Notes under the pieces: model-generated
Database searches by the model: none
Seen by the model: the letters and a program-made list of their open reading frames with translations, nothing else
Told to the model about the DNA's origin: nothing
Source: Tieghemostelium lacteum
Taxonomy: Eukaryota; Evosea; Eumycetozoa; Dictyosteliales; Raperosteliaceae
Direction of reading: 5' to 3'
Assembly (NCBI GenBank): GCA_001606155.1
Contig: LODT01000051.1
Coordinates: 434,001-498,000, forward strand
DNA: 64,000 nt
Shown here: piece after piece, positions 40,525-58,362 of the stretch
Layout of the letters: the number at the start of each line of letters is the position of its first letter
Position numbering within the stretch: position 1 is the stretch's first letter
Made by a program: the position numbers and the translations under genes

Positions 40525-42993
40525 ATGGGTTTTGTGCCAATTTTTCAAAATAAAAACATCAAAAACTTTTTTCTTAGCACACCTAACACATCAAAAATGG
40601 AATCTCTACTAGAGTGTATTGATAAGATGAATGAACATCAACAACAACAATTTATTTTAGCTCAACAACAACAGCAACAGCAACAGCAACAACAACAGCA
40701 ACAACAACAAATGTTTTTAGCTCAACAACAACAACAACATCTACATCATATCAATATGATTCAAAAATTGTATCAACTTATGATCCAGAATAATAACTCT
40801 AGCCCCATCGCTACTACTACCAATAACAATATCAATAACAATAACAATAACAATAACAATAACAATAACAATAACAATAACAATAACAATAATAGCACCA
40901 ACACCAAAAAAAGAGGAAGACCCAAAAAGACATTAACCACACAAACACCACAACCATTAAATTCTGAAATTCCTCAACCACTGAGTTCACAATCTCATAT
41001 TTCACTTAGTCCAACACCCCCTCTAACAATTGTTGGTTCCCAAAAAAGAATAGCACTACAAGATGTGAGTACATTAACCTCTGTTATTAATCTAACAACC
41101 AATATCTCTGATTCTCATACTTCTAATAACGAAAACGAAGAAATAGAAGAAATAGAAGAAATCGAAAACATTGGTCAACCAACTATTGCATTTAGTAATA
41201 TGCAACTGGATTTTCTTAGGGAGGAAGAAGAAGAAGAAAACCTTGAAAACGAAATAGAAACAGGAACAGGAAACGTAAACATTTATAGAGATGATCTCGA
41301 TTATATTCCTTATGATTTTAGTTATCAAGATAGTGAAATTACTCTTACCCAAATTGAAGGAGATGATCCTTTTAATGGAGTTACACCAAATGTAGTTAAA
41401 GAAATGAAACCAGATCCTATAGATCCTATTGGTGATAATCAACCCAAAACAGAGACAAACCAGAGCTATTTTGAAGAAGAATCAGGAAATATAGATGGTA
41501 TTCCAGAGAATTGTAAAGATCCTGTTGATTTTTTCAATCTACTTTTTAAAGATTTGATAGAAGAGATCTTTAATGCGTCCAATGGCTATCTCCATAAGCT
41601 ACATACTGAGAAAGCTATGTGGCCAAAGGCAACCAACCCACCGTGGGTAACTGTGTACAAAAATATAACTCGAAAAGATATAGAGCTATACATAAGTATA
41701 TTTTTATTTGCAGGTATAGTTAGATGTACAGATATGAAAGACCTTTTAAAGCCTAGGATGTATTTTCCACATTTTAATAAGAAACTTTCTTATTTTAGAT
41801 TTCGTGCTATTGATCGATTGATTCACCTTAAAGGATTTGCAACTAGAGAGACTATTGATGGTGTGCTAACAGTTAAAAAAACAGATTTCACTTGGTTTAT
41901 TGATTACGCACTGGGTGCAATCAAAAAATATTACAAACCAGGTACCAATATATCATGTGATGACGACTTATACAAATGGATGGGAAAAGGTGGATTAAAG
42001 AAAAGAATTCCAGGTAAAGCTGATAGGGTTGGCAACATTCTCTGGAAAGTTGCTGATTCAAACAAATATATCTATCATTTTATTGTGGAACATTTGATGG
42101 CTGAAAGATGTAAAATAGATGGTAAAATATTAAATGAAGAAATATTAAGAGATGCAGAAAATTCACTACAAAGAGATAAAACCCATTGCTTTATCATTGA
42201 TGCTGGTCTCTTAGGGTCCATGAAAAACTGTATATATCTAGAAAAACAAAATAGAATGTTTCTGGTCTCTATAGCCTCTAACAAGCTTGGTGAACAATTT
42301 CCAGCTCTTTTTGATAATGCCAAAGATCATAAAGAGAAATATAAAGACCAAAAACACAAGTTTACAGACACTGTTGCAAAGAGAATCAAAGATCTCCATG
42401 CTGTGAAATATGGTACTGTCAATAATATGACTATTATGTGTTGGAGAGCCAAACCTGATAAAATTGTTTATTGGGGTACAAATATCACAAACCCAATAGA
42501 GAATATTGTAAAAACCGCTAGATCAAAAGATGGTTTTACCCAAGTTGCAACTCCTAGAGCTGCCTATGTGTACAACTTTTGTCACAACTTTGTTGATGCG
42601 TCTAAGATGGTGATAAACAGATATAGAAATGTACAGAGAGCTAGAACATTCTGGAGAGTTATTTTTCATGATGTCTTTTACCTGATGCTCTATGATACTT
42701 GGATTCTTTATAAGATTAAATCTACTCAAGGTAATCCCAATGCCAAAGTGTTATCTTTTAAAGAATACATTCTCCAAGTTGTCTATTCTCTCTCTGGGGA
42801 ACAAGAAATAGAAGCTCCACCAACAACTGTTCCTAAACTGATAATAGAAAATAGAGCAAAATGTTCTAATGAACATTGCCATCATCCAGAAAATCGATCT
42901 TCATACAAATGTTTATGTCATGGCAAAAACTTTCATGAAGATTGCTCTATCATTATTCATTTTGGCCTAAAAGTTTCAAAATTTCCAACTTGA
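40525..42993 (+). CDS. piggyBac transposase
   Basis: An open frame of 822 residues from 40525; the next ATG at 40597 (residue 25) is a plausible alternative, because the first lies only 16 bp inside the element. The N-terminus has Gln and Asn runs and an AT-hook-like KKRGRPKKT (128-136). The DDE_Tnp_1_7 core has ISIFLFAGIVR and KLSYFRFRAIDRLIHL. The catalytic Asp candidates are D479-D481 (NISCDDD), D559 (FIIDAGLLGS) and D691 (NFVDASKM), the spacing of the piggyBac triad. A Cys/His-rich C-terminal domain (780-807, C-x4-C...C-x-C...H-x2-C) is the usual DNA-binding finger. No internal stop was seen, so it may be functional. Confidence 0.93.
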   Translation: MGFVPIFQNKNIKNFFLSTPNTSKMESLLECIDKMNEHQQQQFILAQQQQQQQQQQQQQQQQMFLAQQQQQHLHHINMIQKLYQLMIQNNNSSPIATTTNNNINNNNNNNNNNNNNNNNNNNNSTNTKKRGRPKKTLTTQTPQPLNSEIPQPLSSQSHISLSPTPPLTIVGSQKRIALQDVSTLTSVINLTTNISDSHTSNNENEEIEEIEEIENIGQPTIAFSNMQLDFLREEEEEENLENEIETGTGNVNIYRDDLDYIPYDFSYQDSEITLTQIEGDDPFNGVTPNVVKEMKPDPIDPIGDNQPKTETNQSYFEEESGNIDGIPENCKDPVDFFNLLFKDLIEEIFNASNGYLHKLHTEKAMWPKATNPPWVTVYKNITRKDIELYISIFLFAGIVRCTDMKDLLKPRMYFPHFNKKLSYFRFRAIDRLIHLKGFATRETIDGVLTVKKTDFTWFIDYALGAIKKYYKPGTNISCDDDLYKWMGKGGLKKRIPGKADRVGNILWKVADSNKYIYHFIVEHLMAERCKIDGKILNEEILRDAENSLQRDKTHCFIIDAGLLGSMKNCIYLEKQNRMFLVSIASNKLGEQFPALFDNAKDHKEKYKDQKHKFTDTVAKRIKDLHAVKYGTVNNMTIMCWRAKPDKIVYWGTNITNPIENIVKTARSKDGFTQVATPRAAYVYNFCHNFVDASKMVINRYRNVQRARTFWRVIFHDVFYLMLYDTWILYKIKSTQGNPNAKVLSFKEYILQVVYSLSGEQEIEAPPTTVPKLIIENRAKCSNEHCHHPENRSSYKCLCHGKNFHEDCSIIIHFGLKVSKFPT
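40663..40710 (+). repeat. CAA/CAG microsatellite (poly-Gln)
   Basis: A near-pure CAR repeat encoding Gln in the transposase N-terminus. The mix of CAA and CAG interrupts the run. Confidence 0.85.
40834..40893 (+). repeat. (AATAAC)n microsatellite (poly-Asn)
   Basis: About ten tandem AATAAC units encoding an Asn run within the transposase gene. Such runs are a hallmark of dictyostelid coding DNA. Confidence 0.9.
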
Positions 42994-45456: not shown

Positions 45457-48400
45457 TTAAATACCAGAGAATGATGAAACTAAATTGTCAGCCAATTCTC
45501 TTAGAGTGGCATTTGGTACCGATTGAAGAGTCTTTAGAATGTCAATTGGTACTTGTTTTTGAATGGATTCTCTAGAGGAATCAAAAGGTAAAAAGTCATT
45601 AAGAGTTCTGAGCAAATAGAGAATGAGATTTTCTGATGAGGCGTTATTAAAGATATTTACAAAGCACAGAATGATATTATATTTCTCTACAAGATGGTCA
45701 ACAATTTTACTCTGATTCAAATGTCTATTGATGATTTTAATGGCGCTGTATTGGAGTGTCTCATGACCAGAGTAAAGGCATTGTGTTAGAGGTTTATAGA
45801 AATCTCTCTTTACAAAGTTTTGGTGACACTGGTCAAGGAACAAAAGTTGATAGATAGCATCTACACATGCCTGGTGAACTGATGCATCTTGAGCAATAGG
45901 TCTTTCAAATACCTCATAGATACGATCAAATGCATTACTGTTAGTGTAGATTTCCAATCTGTTCAGAGAGGAAATGGACAGTCTTTGAATAATCTGTAGT
46001 GCCAATACCAAGGTATCTTGTTGTTTAGTGTCTAGGAATCTTACAATTGAGTCTATACATTTCATGTTTCTAATGATATTCTTACCCTTATCACTTACAG
46101 AGAATGCAAATATCATTTCCAATATCAGTTTGTTGATTATATCTTGGTATTCCTCTTTAACAAGATTTGATAGATTAACTTCTTTCTTCTCTGTTACTGT
46201 TGGTTTTACAGGTTCCAAATCCAACAATGATACACCACCTCCTTTACCACCAGAGAGCAATAAATCATCATTATCATCAATCAATTTCAGTGGTGGTAAT
46301 ACTAATAATGACAGCAAATTATCATTTAAAAATCCACCAGTTAACAATTGGTTGTTAACTTGAGTACTATTCTTACTGAGGTAACTTAGAATAGTTAATG
46401 TTTTGAAAATTATTGAGAATTTAGTTTCATTAGATACTGTAGCTACAGGTTCTGTTGTAGTTGTTTCAGTGCTAGTAGTGCTACTGCTGTTGTTGTTGTT
46501 ATTATGTTTTGCAATCATAGACAATACAGCAATGAATTGATCAATTGAATTTTGAGTGGTATTTTCTAATATTTTTACAAGTTCACTTTCCAAAGATATT
46601 TCAAATAGTTCAAGAATTTGGAGTTTAAGGGTAAATGAGGTGGTCTCTGAGACTAGATTTCTCAAGAGTAGAGTTAATCCAGACTCTTTTTGTTGCTCAA
46701 TTGAACAGTCTGCACAGAGGAGGTCAAATTTGGATGTTGGTACAGCCTTGACGAGATTGAGTAGTGTTGTCATTACCAATTGTTTATTGGCATCTGGAGT
46801 AGAGTCATGAAGCATGTTAATGAGTGCAAATGTACCTCCATAGTTGACTATAGACTCTGCTGATTTGTTATTCATAGGTACCAAAGACAGAATCTTACAC
46901 CCAGCTGTTTTGAATTGGTCTTGGAAGAGAATACCTACAATGTGACTTATGAAATCTGGGTTTTGTGAGACTAGTTCTCTACATTGACTGTTAGAGAGAA
47001 GGTTAACTAATGTCTCTAGGATATAGAGTTTATAATCTAGATTTTGAATGGGTATTGATATTGTAGGTTGAGAGAGAATCTGTAAGAGTATATTTAGTCC
47101 ACCCAATTGAACGATGCTTGAGCATATTTCATCTTCAATAGACAGACCATAAACTGATACTAAACTGTACACGAATAGCAGTGGGTCCATGGAGGATGGT
47201 GATTTCTTGAGAACTTCAAAGAGAGCTTGTAAACCTCCATTCTCAACGACTCTAGCTCTACCAGGACCATCCACAACGATAGAAGATATAGCATTGGCAG
47301 CACTAACACTAACAGCATTACCCAACAACAAAAGAGTAATCAAACCTGGAATACCTGATTTCTGAGTGAATATCTCCCAAATATTGGTTTGATTTGAGCT
47401 GTTTTCAAATAGAGTGGAAATCAATTTTATACCAAAAGATTTGATATTCTCTTTGGTTGATGGTTGAATTACCAAATCTGAAATCTGAGTAATTGCATTG
47501 GTACTGAGTAAATATCCACCACAATCTTGTGATTTGGCTAGTTCAGTGAGAATAAACAAACAGTTACTTAGGATAACTTCGTTTTTAGAGGTTAATAACT
47601 CTGATAGAGACTGAAGTATACCATTAGAGATCATAATGTCTCTGAAATCTGGTGTAACTGATGGTAAGATGATAGTGAGAATATTTAATGTGTACTCTTG
47701 TAGATAGCTATTCTTGATAGCTAACATTGGTGTCAATGATAATACAATACCACTATCCAAGACATTCTTGATTAGGTCTTTGGTTGTAATGACTTTAGAC
47801 AAAATCAATACAGAATAGATTTGAGTTTGGATAATGAAACCCTCTTCACCATTCTTTGCTTGAATATTTATACTATTGAATAGATATTCAATTATAGACT
47901 GAATCAAATCTGATTTTACCAATTCTTGTTTATATTTATCCTCTTGTGCAAATCCAGAGAGAATTTCAAGTACACAAACCAGTGTTTTTATATCTTTAGT
48001 GTAGATATTGAAACATGAAATCAATTGATTCAGACAGCCATACTTGTAGGCCAAGTCTCTATTAGATCCATTTTCTCTACAAATCTCAGAGAGTGAATAG
48101 ATTGCAGATTTCTTTAACTCTGGGTTCTGGTTCTGTAACATCTCTACCATCTTTTGAATAGAAGTACCTTCAGAGATTGCAAATTTAATATCTGGTGAAT
48201 GTGTTGCTAATTTTTGAATTAGTTTAAGTGCATTACTCTTGATATTGTTGTTATTAGATGACAATAGAGCTTGTGTGTACTGTAGACCTCCTTCACCTAG
48301 CACAATTATAGCAGTAGTCTCATCATCACAGAGATTGGAAAGAGTTTCAGATACCAGTTCCTTTACAGAATCACTGTTACTAGGGTTAAGTAACTGGACT

Positions 48401-51107
48401 AAGAGTATAATACCCTTTCCATTTTCAATGAGTACAAACTCCTTGCAGATATTCTTGGAAGTCGATGACAATCTCATCAACAAACGAATACAATTCCATT
48501 GAGTCTTGAGATGATCTTTAATTTTATCTTCACTGGAATTTGAATTCTCTGCTTTTACTATATCCTCAGTATCATTGACATAGTTGTGGTAAGGTACCTT
48601 GGACAATGGACTTAAAAGTCCACCAGTACTAGGTGTAGTGGTACTAGCAGAAGTAGATGTAACTGTAGTGGACTTTGGTTGTGGTGTAGAAAGTATCTCA
48701 ACAATCATATTCAAACCACCAACTTCAAATATACTCTGGCACACCTTTTCAGATTTATTGGCTAGATTGGAGAGTATACCCAATGGAAGTGATGGTGGAC
48801 GTGATTTATCACAAAGTATCATAATAACCTGTTCAGTGATACCACATTGAATTAGAAGTTCACGACACTGGTCATTGGATGCAATACCTTCAATAATCTT
48901 GAGACAGTTTAGTTCTGATTTGGTATTCTGTATACCTGCGACCAATGCCTTTACAATCTCTTCATTAGTCAATGACTTTATAAATGAAGCTAGAGTTCCA
49001 TAAGTTCCAGCTAAATTTGCAAGTACTTGAACTGCTGATTGATAATCTGCAATATTAGCACTAGGTGTAAATTTGATCAATAGATTATGAACTATTCCAG
49101 TCTCAATAAATGTATTTACATATTTAGCACCCATATTAGTGCTCATTTGCAACAATAGTTTCAACATGATTTCATTAGTCTTTTTATCCAAATCTTTAAT
49201 CAACATTTCACCTAAAAATATGAATCCACCTGCAGAATACATCTTATCAGTTGTTTGATTTTCAACTATATAATTGTTTAGAGTATAAAATAAATGTTAA
49301 TATTAATCATTGATTATAATGATGAATTTGGTTTTTGATTTTTACCATTTTGGGAATAGTTGTTGAGAATTTTCAAAACTTTGTAGATGACTTTGGAGTG
49401 GGTGGATAAGAGTAATGGGGAGATTGTACTGATGACACCTTGGGTTAAGAGATCAGATTTCATTTGTTCATCTTCCATAAGTTTAGAGACGATACCTAGT
49501 AGATGGACTTGAAGATCGTCTTTATTCTTTTGAGTTGCAGCTCCATAGGATCCACCAGAAGCAGATTCAATCAAACTTAGTAACTGTACAATAGTGGTCT
49601 TTGGTAGAATCTCAATGGTAGTGGTAATGGTAGGAGCACCAGTTGTTGTAGCGGTGTTGGCATCTGGTTTAGCACCAGAAAGTAGAGAAAGTGTAGATGT
49701 TACACCTGTTCCATTTGCACCTGTAGCTGGTTTAGTATTCTTGAGTTTAACTAACATTGCCAATAAATTTTTAATTATATTAGCACAATCAATCTGAATT
49801 AGTGGTGACTGACTTGAATATGCAAGGATATCAATGAGTACTTGAACCTGATCACGAGGTTCAGTGAGTGTCTTGAGAAGCTTTTCATTGCCAATGGCTA
49901 TATCCATGATTTGGAAACACAATGCAACAGCCTCAGTCTGATACGATTCCTTATAGATTCTCTGTACAAATTCAAGGAAAGGTTTCAAACCACCTACTAA
50001 AGCCCTTTCAATAGACTGTTGATCGTAGGATATCATGTAATCGTAGATCTCAAGCAATGCTTGATATTGTTGATTTGGATCACGGTAGTTGTCAAAAAGG
50101 TATGGAATGAGTCTACTTATACATGTCTTTTCATTCTGACTCTGATGGCTGAAACAGTATTCACAGACTCTTACCGGATCGTTATGGTTAAACTGTGGTA
50201 TTTTGATCCTCTTTAATGTGCAAGGGTCACATAACTCTCTTTGACAACATCTACAATGATGTCTTCTCTTGATTACTGTGAAAGGTGTATAGCAATTAGA
50301 GCAACTAGGTACAATTTTCTCAATGTCCCATAATGGAGAGGACTGAGAAAGCAGTGTAGTACTTCCATTAGCACTAAAAGGCTTTTTATTAGTTGAAGGT
50401 GTTGTATTAACCGGTGTAACAACCTTTGGAATTGGTTTAACAACCTGTGTTGGTAATGATGAATTTCTAGGTCTTTGATAGCCACTATTTGCACTATTAC
50501 TAGTACTTGTTGTAGTTGTAGATGGACTTACAACTGGGTTTTTAGGCAGTGAATTAGAATACCCAAATTCACTCATATTTGGATAAAATGAGTCATTTTG
50601 ACTACTACTAGCACTACTATTGGTACTGTTATTATTTGACAAGTTATTATATGAAATCTTTATAGGTGTGCTAGAGGTGTTATTACTATTACTATTGTTA
50701 CTACTGTTATTATTAGCTGCTGTCGAAGTAGACGATGTGGTATTGGTCATATTGGTTATATTAAAACTAGGATGAATCCAAGAAGTCTTTTTATTGAGAT
50801 GATCTATATAGTATGTTCTACCCTGTCCATCTGTTGACTCCTCCCAACCTTCAGGTAATGATGACTTGGTTGTAGATTGATTCATGTTGATATTAATAGG
50901 GAGATTATTAGTACTTCCAGCAAGACTGTTACTAGGTGATGGTGTAGTACTTGGAACCTGTGGTTGTTGTTGTATATTTGAGAATGATGATCCTGCTGGT
51001 GGTGTCCATGACTGCTGTTGTGTTATTGGATTGAAATAATAGTATCTACCCATATTATCAACGGCAATCTGCCAACCTGGTGGTAAATTTGGGAAACTTG
51101 GTTGCAT
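45457..51107 (-). CDS. WW-WW-FYVE-armadillo repeat protein
   Basis: Exons are 51107-49346 and 49265-45457 (intron 49266-49345, 80 nt, phase 1). The join gives SQNV|ENQTTDKMYSAGG without a stop and totals 1,856 residues. WW domain 1 spans about 8-37 (W12 and W34) and WW domain 2 about 84-113 (W88 and W110). The FYVE finger (260-322) has the basic RRHHCR (281-286) and RVC (313-315) signatures that bind PI3P. The remaining ~1,500 residues are armadillo repeats (many LLS..IIK..L patterns). It likely sits on early endosomes or phagosomes through FYVE and binds proline-rich partners through WW. Ser/Asn-rich linkers separate the domains. I do not know a named homolog. Confidence 0.9.
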
Positions 51108-51868: not shown

Positions 51869-54800
51869 ATGAAGTCAATAGTATTATTATTATTGATAGT
51901 ATTGATTGTATTTGTTGGTTCAAGTTTTCAAGTTAATACTTTAGGACAACACCAACAATCTCATCAATTATACACTGATAGAAATGAATTGGATATTAAT
52001 ACACTCAAACAAGAATATGAAAATGTTATAAAGTAAGTTACTTCTTCATATCTATCTATTTCCTTCTCTCTACTCTATCAGTTATTAATTCATCTTTATA
52101 TTCAAATAAACAAAAATTTATTTTTTATTAACTAATTAGGGAATTTTATAATAAAAATAATTTAAAAGAATTTAATAATATTTTATCAGAAACTTTAGAC
52201 AGATTAAAATCAATCCAAGTTTCAAAGAATTCAAGTTCAACTTCCAACCCAAGCTTTAGTGATTTGGATTGGTTTTTAGATTTCAAACAAACTGCTAACA
52301 TTAGTAATAGTGTGTTGAATGTCGATACTCATCAAAACACTAGAAAATCCATAGCCATTGTTGTATCAAGTTATCAGGGACTCTATTCAACATCTGGTAT
52401 TGGTACTGTGTATTCCATTCTCTCTGATTTTCTTGTAAAGAAAGGATACAAAGTAACTGTTATATACACTAGAGATGAGGCACCTGAGAAACTCTCATTT
52501 GCACAATGGAGGACTTTACTAGCTGGAAAGCATATTCAATTAGTATCACTACCACCAAGCTCTGTTCGTACTGAGAACCCTCTATTTCAGAGAAAATCCT
52601 ATCAGGTCTATCAGTACCTGAAACAGCACCAAAACGATTTTGATATTGTACATTTCCCAGATTTCGAGGCACTGGGTTACTACAGTATTCTCTCCAAGAA
52701 TGACGGTCTTCATTTTGATAAGACTCTCTTGATAGTAGGTCTACATGGTCCATCTCAATGGGTACACGAGTCAAATCAACTGTTGTCTACTTCCACTTCA
52801 AATTACTCGACTTCAACAAGTGTTACTGATAAATTGAATATTGATCAATTGGAATTGAATTATATGGAAATGAAGCAAGTCGAACTAGCTGATCTCGTAT
52901 GGACACCAAGTAACTATATAGTAAACTGGTTAGTTGCAAAAGGATGGAAAATTGATAGTTCTAAGTTATATCTCTTGCCATTCCTTGCACAGGAGTTTAC
53001 TGATGATACAACCCAATCCACAAATATTCAAAAGTCACTTGAAGAACAACCAGTATCTCAAGTCAGAGAATTTGTATTCTTTGGTAGATTAGAGAAAAGA
53101 AAGGGTTTAGATTTATTCTGTGATGGGTTGGATCTGTTATCAAAGACAAGTGGTTTGACTAGTTTTGAATTATCATTGATTAAAGTCACCTTTTTAGGTA
53201 GATCTGTTGGTAACTATCACGGAAATCCAATTGGAAAGAGTGAGATGTCTTCCATTGAATATTTACGAAAAAGATCGATAGAATGGCCATTCCAAATCCA
53301 GTTTCTAACTGACAAAAGTACTACAGAGTCTATGGCATATCTAACTGAATCCGGTAAAGATAGACTAGCAGTCATTCCATCTTTAGAAGATAATGCACCA
53401 TATACACTCTATGAATGTCTCTATTCTCAAATTCCTTTTATTGCCAGTGGACAACAATCAATGAAACCTCTAATTCAACCCCAGTATCATGAATTAGTAT
53501 TATTTACACCAAAGGCTCATCATCTATCTAGAAAACTAACTCAAGCTCTTAAAAAGGGTGTAATTGTATCCGAACCTACTCACTCTAAAGAACAAGCACA
53601 AGAGTCATGGACTAAATTCTATGATTTAATCTATAATAGTGTATTACCATCTATAACCTCTTCTAAAAAGTCAAATATAATAGGACAAGATGATATCATT
53701 GTATCTGTATGTATTACACATTTCAATAGACCAGATCTACTGAACCAGGTATTGGAATCAATTCAAAAACAGACTTATCAAAAACTACAAGTTATTCTGG
53801 TAGATGATGGTAGTAATGATACCAAGGCTTTAGAGTATCTAGATGAACTTTCAAAAGGCTTGTTTAGTCAACATCCAACATGGAAGATTATTAAAACATC
53901 CAATAGATATCTGGGAGCTGCAAGAAATACAGCTGCTAAAGAGGCAATTGGTAAATACTTGTATTTTATTGATGATGATAACTATGCCTATTCACAAGCT
54001 GTAGAGACTTATTTGAAAGTTGCTGAATACACCAAGAGTGATGTAGTAACATCACCTCACTCCATTGTAAAGACATTGAAAGTTCCAACATCTTTGGATG
54101 TAGAAAGACAATGGGTACCACTAGGTGATTCACTCCAAGTTGGTTTGTTTAAGAACTGTTTTGGTGATGCAAATTTCTTTATTCTGAAAAGTACATTTGA
54201 GTCTATAGGAGGATTTACAGAAGAGTATGGTGTAGGTCTTGAAGATCATGAAATCTTAGCAAATCTAGTTCTATCTGGATACAAACTTACTGTTAGTACA
54301 GATCCTCTATTGTATTACCGTATGCATGACCCAGTTAACCAAATGGTTTACAAAACTGACCAGAAATCCAATCAAATGCGTTATATAAGACCATTCTCAA
54401 AAGCATTAAAGAGCCATAAACCAATATTGACTGTTTTGGCAAGTCAAACCTTTTCTTCAAAGGCATTGTTGGCATCTAATTTGACCGTTACATCTGTTCA
54501 ACCAAATTCAGGTCCAACAGCAGGTCAAAATAGAGTAACTATTAGAGGTACTGGTTTCTTTGTTGGTATTACAGAAGTTAAGTTTGGGTCAACTCAAGTT
54601 CCAACTAGAAATGTTCATGTTATTGATGATGAACGTATTGAAGTTAAGGTACCAAAAGTTTCTCAACCAGGTTCAGTTGATGTCAAGGTAACTGCACTAG
54701 AAGGGGGTTCAGCAACTCTTAATGATGGTTATGTCTTCCTTTCAAGTCTTCGTGTTGAGAAATGTCTTATGGCAAATGATGAAGGATCTATAGTCTGTCA

Positions 54801-57800
54801 ATTAGACTCCAAAGCCAATACCAATAGATTTGATTGTTCGTTGATATTCTCATCTGCAACTCTTGAGACTTTGGGATCTGGTGCACAGTGTAGATACACT
54901 GATCCTATGACTTTGGAAATTGAATTTGGATCAGATCCATCTATTCAACCTAATCAACAATTGGAGTTTGTAGAAGGTGGTATAGTCTCTCAAGATGGGA
55001 AACAACAAAATGAAAGACAATTAGTAACTGTTCAACCACCACTCTTAACACCTCCATTGGCTTCTATTAAAGGTCCAAAATCTATTGGATCTTGTGAAGA
55101 TAATTTAGTACTTGATGGTTCACAGTCTTCAGGTGGACAGGGTAAACCATTGAAATTCCATTGGGCACTTGAAACATCACCAAGTCAAAACAAAGATCAA
55201 ATTGAAAATCTAATGAATACCAAAGCTGATAAAGTTACCATTCCAAATAATCTATTAATAGCAGGTGAGCAATATGAATTCTCTTTGAATGTCTCTAATT
55301 GGTTAGGTACTTCTGATAAAACAACATTTTCAATAACCAAATCTGATAAATCAGTATTGACTGTAACTATTAAAGGTGCAAGTCGTGTCATTTTGAATCC
55401 AGATGAAAATCATCTCTTTGAAGGTACTGCAGTACTTCCAGAATGTGCCAACAAAGAAAAGGATGGTGCCAGTCAGTTCAATTATAAATGGAGTATAACT
55501 CCAGAACCTGAAGGCTACATCTCCAATACCACCCAAAACCATCAGAAATGGATTCTATCTGCTCCAAAATTGATTTCTGGTAAAAACTATAAAGTCAGAT
55601 TAACTGTAACTCTTGGTAATATTAAAGGATATGATGAAGTAGATGTTAAAGTTAAACCCAAACCACCAGTAGTCAAGATTGAAGGTACTGATAAAAAGTA
55701 TTCCACCACTAGTAAAATTAAATTAAGTGCAATAATTCAAGAACCAAAGACAATTGAAAATGCAGATAAACTAAGTTATATATTTAAATGGCATTGTTCA
55801 CTGTCTGGAAACAAAGGTGATTGTCCTATTGGTTCACTTCCAGATGATCAGTCTATTGAAATTCAAGCTTCTGAATTGGGTGTTGGTAAATATCTGTTTG
55901 CTGTTGAAGTCACTCCTTCAGATGACGCTGATCGTGTTGGTACTGGTAGTGGTCCACTTGAAATCACTGATAAATCATTCATTGAAGTATCTATAAAGAA
56001 ACTAACACCACCAATCAACCCAGAACTCAAAATTAAATTGGAAACTGTTGTAAAGAATCTTAAGGAATCTTATAAATTCAAATGGGCTTTAGATGAAGGT
56101 CAATTAGCCGCTTCATCATTCAAAGATGCTATATCAACATCTGATACATCAAAGAACTTAGTATTGAATCAACATGCTTTAGACTATGATACACTATATA
56201 CATTCTCAGTAACTATAACTGACAGTGCCTCAGATATTACAGGTAGAGCTGTAATTACATTCAAGACTGAAGGACGTCCTTACGGAGGAAGCATTGAATG
56301 TGACCAAAGTGGTGGGGTAATGGACAAATTCTCTATTAATCTAGGTGATGGTTGGGATTCACCTAACTCCACTGGTGTACAATATTACTCATTTAAATAC
56401 CTAGGGGAAAATGGACTACAAATTCCACTTAGTGAGAAATCTACTGATAAACAAGTCTCAACCATGTTACCACCTGGTAAGAACAAAGTAATTGGTTATG
56501 TATGTTCTTCAAAAGACGGTGCATGCACTAAAGCAGAATGCACAATCAATGTAAAATTCCCCAAATTTGAAGATGCTGATGAAATTATAAAATATATAAC
56601 TCGTATGATTCAAGATCCTAATGTATCGATATATGATCTTGCCAATTGTCTAAAGATTGCAAACTCCTTGTTAGCAGCTAAAGGAAAGAAAATGACAAAT
56701 GCAGAAGTTGCTGAAAAAGTAACTGCTATACAATCCACATCAGTTGATATAGCACAGGTTCGTTTGGGTAAAGCAGACTCTGCAGAATCTCTATCAGCTC
56801 TTATTGATATTCTGGGAAGTGCTACTGAATCACATTCTATTCTGACACCAGGTCACCTATCCAAGACTGCAAAAGTCATGCAAAGTCTAGTACCAAAACT
56901 TAAATCATACAACTCATTGATTAAAGATGATTTTACCAACTCATTAACTGTTCTATCCAATATTGATGACCAAATGTTCAGACAATTGTACAAGAATGAG
57001 TCTTCTGAACCTGAAATTAAACAGAAATTCACTGCAACTCTAACTAGTCTAGACGAGATTTCACATGAATTGGCTAATGGTATGCTCACTCACTTGAGTA
57101 ATGGTGAAAAGATGCAGGTTATCACTCAAAAGGGTGTTACAATTGCAACTTTGAAACATGATCCTAGAACCATGGATGCTGGTGATATTAGTATTCATGC
57201 ACAGGAATCTGATGAGTTGTCATTTAACATTCCCAAAGGAATTTTGACTAAACACTTGTCCAATTTACATTTAGATTCTGAGGTCTCTTTGAAAATGATC
57301 AAACTACCAAATAATATAAGATACTTTAGTAACAAGACTAGATTTGTCGATGAATTTGGTACATTTTCTTTGGATGTTATGAATGGAGATAAGCAACTTG
57401 ATATCTCTGGTCTTGCAAACAAGATTGAGATTCAAATGGAGAGTAAAGGTGTAAAGACAAAGGATTTAAAATGTATGTGGTATAATGAAAAAGAAGATAA
57501 ATTCTCAGATTCTGGTTGTGAAACTGTTACCAAAGGTGATAAAGTTACTTGTAAATGTGATCATTTGACTCAATTTGGTATCTTACATTTGTTGGGTGGC
57601 AATGCAAGTAAAGGTGCTAGTGTATTAACAATAGTCTTATCATGTGTTGGTGCAGTTGTTGGTGCTGGTTTATTAGTTGGTATGTTTGTAGTTGTAAAGA
57701 AACGTCGTGCAGCTGCCAGAAAGAATGGTAAAGATAAACCTGTTAAAGATTCCAAGAAAGATAAGAGAACTAAAGAACAGAAGAAAGAAGATAAAGATGG

Positions 57801-58362
57801 TAAAAAACAAAAGAAAACCAAAAAGAAAGCAGTTGATGAAAATGGTGAAGGTTCCTCATCGGATAAAGCAATGGAGATTCCAGAAGGTAAACAAGCAGCT
57901 AAAAAGAAGAGTTCAACTCAAGAAGATGGTGAATTTGGTGATGAAAACTCATTTGAATACATTTTAGATGAATTTAATGAAATTTTCCAAAATACTAAAA
58001 AGAAGATACAATCAGATGCCATCAGCAGAAGAAACTCACCAATATCACCAGTTTCAGTTACTGGAAGTAGTATCAGCTCTAATCAATCATCACCAGTATC
58101 AGCAGTTATACCTACTGATACTCCAAAATCTGATCAACCTGTTGTTGCTGAGGATGATAAACCATCATCACCAATTGTATATGGTCAATCTCATGACACT
58201 GCTGCAAGAGTCATTCAAAACTGTTGGAAGAATTACAAAGCACTCAAAGAAGCCAAAAAAGAAGCTGAAGTTGAAGAGTTACTTGATAACATTGGTGAGT
58301 TGCTTTCTGATGATGAAATTGATCCATTTGCAATTGAACAAAATCAATTTGAAGATAATTAA
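51869..58362 (+). CDS. Type I membrane protein: two glycosyltransferase domains, TIG, REJ/PKD-like region, GPS site, IQ motif
   Basis: Exons are 51869-52032 and 52140-58362 (intron of 107 nt, phase 2), giving 2,128 residues. The signal peptide is at 1-20. A GT-B (GT4-like) domain spans about 120-500, with GIG at 141-143, FGRLEKRKG, and an acidic EX7E-like segment around 471-480. A GT-A (GT2-like) domain spans about 572-790, with VDDGSND, GAARNTA, a DDD triplet at 666-668 and a GLEDHE motif. An IPT/TIG domain lies at ~837-924. REJ/PKD-like repeats lie at ~1028-1531. The GPS motif (~1830-1874) has paired Cys and the predicted HLT cleavage site at 1863-1865. A membrane span lies at ~1882-1905, followed by a Lys-rich cytoplasmic tail and an IQ motif (2076-2090, calmodulin-type). 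Both catalytic modules would be lumenal or extracellular. Confidence 0.9.

Follow-up and report, generated by a model that had tools for sequence, protein, structure and literature searches.

A dictyostelid gene joining a bacterial-type GT4–GT2 glycosyltransferase pair to a polycystin-like, GPS-bearing stalk

What kind of protein would carry two glycosyltransferases ahead of a receptor-like stalk, and where would such an enzyme have come from? The question is raised by one gene of the dictyostelid Tieghemostelium lacteum, at positions 51869-58362 of a stretch of 64,000 nucleotides of contig LODT01000051.1 (the whole stretch is hereafter called the window, and the product of the gene the window protein). 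The gene structure, the domains, the collinear homology to bacterial enzymes and the conserved acidic residues of the GT2 half are directly supported. The reading that we favour, with a little more confidence than doubt, is that one dictyostelid gene combines a bacterial GT4–GT2 surface-polysaccharide enzyme with a signal peptide on its N-terminal side and a TIG-PKD-REJ-GAIN-membrane stalk on its C-terminal side, with the enzyme facing the lumen, the GAIN domain cleaved, and the enzyme displayed or shed. The novelty would lie in the joining of the bacterial pair to a polycystin-like, GPS-bearing stalk; among the matches listed in our literature searches, we recognised no description of this protein.

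Gene structure and domain order

Is this one gene? The spliced product (51869-52032 joined to 52140-58362) has 2128 residues and no internal stops, in agreement with a preliminary description, made from the sequence, of one gene with an intron at 52033-52139; the motifs located there (GIG 141, DDD 666, GLEDHE 754 and HLT 1863) were all recovered in the spliced protein. The exon-2 frame contains no ATG between an upstream stop at 52129 and position 52864, and the intron is required because the bacterial GT-B homology begins near residue 123 (about 52342), upstream of this first in-frame ATG. Domains were called with Pfam at its curated cut-offs (14 families reported in total), and hydropathy was calculated over the whole protein by the Kyte-Doolittle method (window of 19, threshold 1.6). 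The features, all on the forward strand, are as follows.

51869-52032, +: exon 1, with a likely signal peptide (residues 1 to about 20; hydrophobic residues 4-16) and the start of the leader
52033-52139, +: intron, GTAAGT...AATTAG, 107 bp, 79% A+T
52140-58362, +: exon 2, a single open frame holding every fused domain; stop at 58360-58362
52342-53655, +: GT-B (GT4-type) half, residues about 123-560 (PF13439, PF00534, bacterial homology)
53698-54465, +: GT-A (GT2-type) half, residues about 575-830 (DDG 610-612, DDDN 666-669, ED 756-757)
54484-54696, +: TIG (IPT), residues 837-907 (PF01833, 4e-10)
55096-55338, +: PKD-like (K319L-like PKD), residues 1041-1121 (PF22352, 3e-10)
55573-56604, +: REJ, residues 1200-1543 (PF02010, 6e-41)
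56653-57600, +: probable GAIN domain, residues about 1560-1875; in a poor model, six helices precede twelve strands
57469-57585, +: GPS, residues 1832-1870 (PF01825, 4e-9; Cys 1833, 1848, 1859, 1861)
57562-57570, +: HLT with the predicted GPS cleavage site L1864/T1865 (GPS motif)
57622-57696, +: membrane span, residues about 1883-1907, followed by KKRR (hydropathy)
57697-58359, +: lysine-rich tail, presumably cytoplasmic
58213-58248, +: IQ-like stretch from residue 2080 (IQNCWKNYKALK), by a relaxed pattern only

In the enzyme part, Pfam placed Glyco_transf_4 at residues 140-332 (E 5e-7), Glycos_transf_1 at 363-539 (E 8e-8) and Glycos_transf_2 (PF00535) at 577-692 (E 5e-22). The GT4, GT2, TIG, PKD, REJ and GPS matches all lie above the cut-offs, and the case of wrong domain calls, which would have refuted the preliminary description, did not arise. 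Together with the hydropathy profile, these matches uphold the domain order, the GPS and the single membrane span that had been proposed. The profile exceeds the threshold in only two places, the N-terminus and about 1877-1909, from which we infer a topology of a signal peptide and one span before KKRR; the N-terminus likely fits a signal peptide by its hydropathy. Twelve of the 13 N-glycosylation sequons precede the span.

An assembly or annotation artefact, in which two genes, or a bacterial contaminant and an amoeba gene, had been fused, was weighed as well, and nothing was found that speaks for it. An assembly chimera was rejected, since one open frame runs across all the joins in exon 2 and the G+C content at third codon positions of all seven segments examined (0.17-0.27) falls inside the range of 14 other open reading frames (ORFs) of the window (0.17-0.34). 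Codon use correlates with that of the same 14 ORFs at r 0.94 for GT-B, 0.95 for GT-A, 0.92 for TIG-PKD, 0.91 for GAIN, 0.89 for the tail, 0.86 for REJ and 0.78 for the leader, and at 0.68, 0.73 and 0.83 for three bacterial relatives; by this measure the two glycosyltransferase halves look as expected of a resident gene. An artefact is further argued against by the distance of the enzyme from every relative found, the top identity being only 38-39% over the full module (up to 44% in shorter, partial matches), and we give it hardly any weight. The gene is real, and its domain order is real and unusual.

The glycosyltransferase pair and its bacterial relatives

Is the pairing of two glycosyltransferases itself new? 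The preliminary description was right that two different glycosyltransferase folds are present; the novelty does not lie there, the pair being an existing bacterial bifunctional enzyme. In plasmids, the glycosyltransferase (GT) module, i.e., both halves, matched 218 records; in 26, the match spans 80% or more of the module length. The best match has 36.7% identity across 99% of the module (E 9e-115), with the two domains collinear; two of the 26 long matches are only 21-23% identical. A new fusion was therefore rejected, as the pair is already joined in bacteria. Judged by this collinearity over 99% of the module, GT-B and GT-A are one bacterial two-domain bifunctional enzyme, GT4 then GT2, of the kind found on a Citrobacter freundii plasmid (WP_016247607.1), which has the same two domains in the same order at 37% identity over 99%. 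The Citrobacter gene was matched in 36 of 5426 complete Escherichia coli genomes, and in 34 of those the match takes in 80% or more of the gene. In one E. coli genome, ISVsa5 lies inside the match to the relative.

A scan of prokaryote genomes with the GT module gave 44 loci, whose phyla were assigned by record titles and the tree tool, and a search of IMG/VR gave three; with three plasmid loci, these 47 make up the relatives L001-L050. The relatives come from Myxococcota, Chloroflexota, Acidobacteriota, Pseudomonadota, Actinomycetota, Campylobacterota, Verrucomicrobiota, Bacteroidota and Planctomycetota. A full-length set of 37 relatives covers more than 550 residues of the module; L031, L035 and L050 were omitted for an open or broken frame, and ten loci (L036-L043, L046, L047) for a partial match to the query. 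Two side observations concern the records themselves: L006 and L045 are almost identical genes, one from a bin titled Acidobacteria and the other from a bin titled Ilumatobacteraceae, whose samples have similar names (GL140), so that an error in binning is likely, and the IMG/VR contigs L048 and L049 carry full-length relatives near an enterobacterial clade, which may be prophage-borne or misbinned. In phages, 31 records matched the module, none of them covering 80% of the query, and 15 of the 15 matches listed lie on the GT2 half only. Sixteen NCBIfam families match the module, all far under their cut-offs.

The bacterial enzymes differ from the window protein in what surrounds the module. 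Among eight relatives scanned with Pfam (six long ORFs together with L004 and L005), no TIG, PKD, REJ or GPS was found, and they carry glycosyltransferases, TPR or weak unrelated matches. In 13 of the 37 relatives, at most 10 residues separate the upstream in-frame stop from the match, which leaves no room for a signal peptide in those 13; the leader start encoded by exon 1 has no counterpart in the bacterial relatives.

Other glycan genes adjoin the relative in five of the six loci inspected (L001, L002, L051, L014 and L015). L001 and L051 hold a polysaccharide pyruvyl transferase and other glycosyltransferases amid insertion sequences and plasmid or island genes, and at L002 the neighbours include galE, an FkbM methyltransferase and further glycosyltransferases; the record of L003 carries no annotation. 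Ten neighbours were scanned from L014, L015 and L028: those at L014 include an acyltransferase, a GT4, a bacterial sugar transferase and a lipid A acyltransferase, and those at L015 are three glycosyltransferases and one protein without a match. As a side observation, the relative is divergent to the pyruvyl transferase both at L001 7084-10214, on an IncFII plasmid, and at L051 9094-12223, on an E. coli chromosome.

Has the module kept its catalytic residues? With conserved columns defined as those identical in at least 90% of the 37 relatives, 38 of 42 are kept in GT-A and 17 of 19 in GT-B (changed: A452S and G495S). The GT2 acidic residues D611, D666, D668, E756 and D757 are retained. The EX7E-type motif of GT4 has D as its first acidic residue, as in some relatives, and keeps the second E, whereas the GG loop, which reads VGGIPEL in many relatives, is QQSMKPL-like here. 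We take the DDG, DxD and ED residues of GT2 and the EX7E and GG-loop residues of GT4 to be catalytic or donor-binding. The earlier statement that the catalytic-type motifs of both halves are intact thus needs qualifying: most conserved columns are kept, and the GT4 glycine loop is replaced. The GT2 half is most likely active, and the GT4 half may have a changed donor or may have lost activity. An AlphaFold2 (AF2) model of the whole module from 35 sequences is confident (pLDDT, the predicted local distance difference test, 86.6; pTM, the predicted template modelling score, 0.88), and 50 of the 50 PDB matches listed for it by Foldseek are glycosyltransferases, including TarP, RmlT, heparosan synthase and chondroitin polymerase, which we take to be GT-A enzymes. 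Alignment lengths suggest that these matches cover one half, so that support for the GT-B fold comes from Pfam and the alignment.

The replaced glycine loop would also suit a protein whose GT part no longer makes glycans and acts as a sugar-binding ectodomain, sensing glycans of prey bacteria or of kin and signalling via GAIN cleavage and the tail. A stalk of receptor type, built of TIG, REJ, GPS and one span, is in keeping with such a receptor, as is the doubtful supply of nucleotide sugars at the cell surface. However, retention of the five GT2 acidic residues and of 38 of the 42 GT-A columns is not expected of a decayed enzyme, and we consider a receptor of this kind unlikely.

The natural reading of the distribution seen is a transfer from bacteria, which would be compatible with the trees, its direction not being proved. 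Tree 1 (38 rows; midpoint-rooted, for drawing only) places the window sequence inside a 30-row set, apart from the remaining eight rows, with a support of 100 in the Shimodaira–Hasegawa-like approximate likelihood ratio test (SH-aLRT). Tree 2 was built with a six-row divergent bacterial outgroup, selected after tree 1 was seen, and drops six long or divergent rows (L019, L023, L024, L032, L033 and L034); it groups the window sequence with 25 others, in a set of 26 rows, at a support of 100/100. Neither tree resolves a donor phylum.

The GPS, the probable GAIN domain and the tail

Would the protein cleave itself? The GPS holds C1833, W1835, C1848, C1859, C1861 and HLT at 1863-1865, then QFGIL; with its four cysteines and the complete H-L-T/S cleavage triad, the motif is secure at the level of sequence, and self-cleavage is predicted at HL/T1865. 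A phmmer search of the PDB with residues 1560-1875 found 11 sequences at E values of 10 or less, of which six are adhesion G-protein-coupled receptors (GPCRs), including the top four. In a Foldseek search with a model of this region, ranks 1-5 of the PDB matches are all GAIN domains (BAI3 twice, BAI2, latrophilin 1 and GPR110). Residues about 1560-1875 thus form a probable GAIN domain.

Relatives of the stalk were sought in viral_contigs with six short peptide patterns, none of which matched. The stalk matched 19 plasmid records at E up to 0.01, and 15 of the 15 matches listed lie at its TIG end only.

Could the stalk be no more than a spacer? An ordinary Golgi glycosyltransferase, in which TIG-PKD-REJ-GAIN merely separates and anchors the enzyme and GPS cleavage is absent or without a role, would be of type I, which the likely signal peptide, the catalytic module, the single span and the basic tail all fit; moreover, some GAIN domains do not cleave. 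The HLT triad and the four GPS cysteines are kept, however, suggesting a cleavable GPS, and at about 1000 residues the stalk is long to be no more than a spacer. We regard such a Golgi enzyme as improbable.

The cytoplasmic IQ motif proposed in the preliminary description found partial support. Neither the strict pattern IQxxxRGxxxR nor one relaxed pattern matches the protein, and no match to the Pfam IQ motif (PF00612) was reported; a second relaxed pattern, picked after the sequence had been seen, gives a single match at residue 2080, and 0.1% of shuffled tails match it. A calmodulin-binding-domain match (PF02888, E 0.011) scores 16.2 bits, under the cut-off of 25. The tail may bind calmodulin. 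A more elaborate form of the captured-enzyme scheme, in which an active two-step enzyme under a self-cleaving polycystin-like stalk would be released or displayed on a mechanical or adhesive cue, while the stub reports through a calmodulin-linked tail, seems to us doubtful.

Mechanism, known proteins and meaning

We favour the lumenal enzyme with a cleaved stalk on three grounds: the acidic residues of GT2 are retained, the leader is signal-peptide-like, and GAIN domains elsewhere cleave during folding in the endoplasmic reticulum (ER). On this proposal, an ancestor in the amoeba lineage would have acquired the bacterial GT4–GT2 enzyme, and the protein would enter the secretory pathway with the enzyme facing the lumen. 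The GAIN domain would fold in the ER and be cut at HL/T1865, and the enzyme and stalk would stay attached non-covalently, via a strand, to the single-pass fragment. Glycan synthesis would take place in the Golgi, the site of nucleotide-sugar supply, and the enzyme fragment would then be displayed on the cell surface or shed into the matrix.

Several observations weigh against this proposal. Within its set, the window sequence branches in tree 1 beside the other 29 (support 85) and lies in tree 2 at the polytomous base of its 26 rows, its branch is long (1.96 and 2.3), and a sister relationship to all the other rows of the set would also fit. Relatives were sought in bacterial, plasmid and viral sequence only, so that the trees compare the window sequence with bacteria and show neither a direction nor a date of transfer. 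At L028, the neighbours are only an ABC-2 transporter part and a pyridoxal-phosphate enzyme. Within the module, four conserved GT-A columns are changed (P574I, P673S, W758H and P775T; P673 and P775 are invariant in 37 of 37 relatives), and the GT4 glycine loop is lost, with G495S at a position that is G in 36 of 37 relatives. The leader (120 codons) has a lower codon agreement (0.78) than the gene of the Chloroflexota relative (0.83), and the codon measure is therefore not sharp for short segments. As for the GAIN domain, the top four phmmer matches are weak (E 0.007-0.07) and span stretches at the GPS end only, and the AF2 single-sequence model is poor (pLDDT 49, pTM 0.32; six helices, then mostly strands). 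The five leading Foldseek matches (E 1e-5 to 3e-3, three below 0.001) have a template modelling score of about 0.3 and a root-mean-square deviation of about 15 with this model of pLDDT 49. Low-confidence models can give meaningless matches and the search had no control model; the GAIN fold is therefore favoured, not proved.

Three other places in the window drew attention. An intact-looking ORF at 40525-42993 on the forward strand, in which long runs of Q and of N stand close to the start, matches DDE_Tnp_1_7 (1e-29), which we take to be of the piggyBac type, and could be mobile or domesticated. A short forward-strand ORF at 25774-26454 matches part of 7tm_2, Dicty_CAR and Frizzled almost equally; its score clears the Dicty_CAR cut-off (the cAMP receptor family of slime moulds), that for 7tm_2 being similar, and it probably belongs to a cAMP-receptor-like gene that has a further exon upstream. 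At 45457-51107 on the reverse strand, two neighbouring same-strand ORFs with WW-FYVE and armadillo repeats are possibly a single intron-split gene.

How does the window protein compare with known ones? KIAA0319-like proteins share with it the K319L-type PKD and one span; that family is not known to have a glycosyltransferase, REJ or GPS. Polycystin-1 and REJ proteins likewise have PKD, REJ and GPS ahead of the membrane. However, polycystin-1 has eleven spans (PMC9672506), whereas the window protein has one, together with glycosyltransferases, and neither PLAT nor a polycystin channel is among its 14 Pfam families. With adhesion GPCRs it shares a GPS with HLT and probably a GAIN-like fold (here in a poor model), and TQFGIL at the HLT site is close to the agonist consensus TxFAVLM (PMC12716839); unlike them, it has one span after the GPS, no seven-transmembrane (7TM) domain and no 7tm Pfam family. 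The dictyostelid Tiger (Tgr) proteins are also transmembrane with IPT/TIG and mediate cell-cell interactions (PMC3188802); the window protein differs in its single TIG, with an enzyme module in front and REJ and GPS behind.

Published surveys place these features in context. TIG proteins number 55 to 110 per genome in three dictyostelid species (PMC4931340). GAIN and 7TM are encoded by separate genes in diverse non-holozoans (PMC12716839), so that a GAIN domain in a dictyostelid protein is not itself new, and a survey of Amoebozoa family 2 GPCRs found no GAIN domains (PMC10445921). No glycosyltransferase appears in a table of 16 candidate bacterial transfers in Dictyostelium discoideum (PMC3188802), and none is named among 11 transferred dictyostelid genes, a list limited to developmentally essential ones (PMC4931340).

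What would the gene mean for the GAIN family and for social amoebae? The complete GPS triad and the agonist-like strand on a single-pass amoeba enzyme bear on the role that GAIN may have had before it met 7TM, a question for which dictyostelids offer tractable material. The self-cleavage of GAIN domains is known best from its part as a switch in GPCRs. If the more elaborate scheme of release or display on a cue were true, the output of a GAIN protein would here be an enzyme in place of a GPCR, and this in a lineage in which adhesion-type GPCRs reportedly lack GAIN. The gene also looks like a bacterial enzyme recruited into the secretory pathway of a social amoeba.

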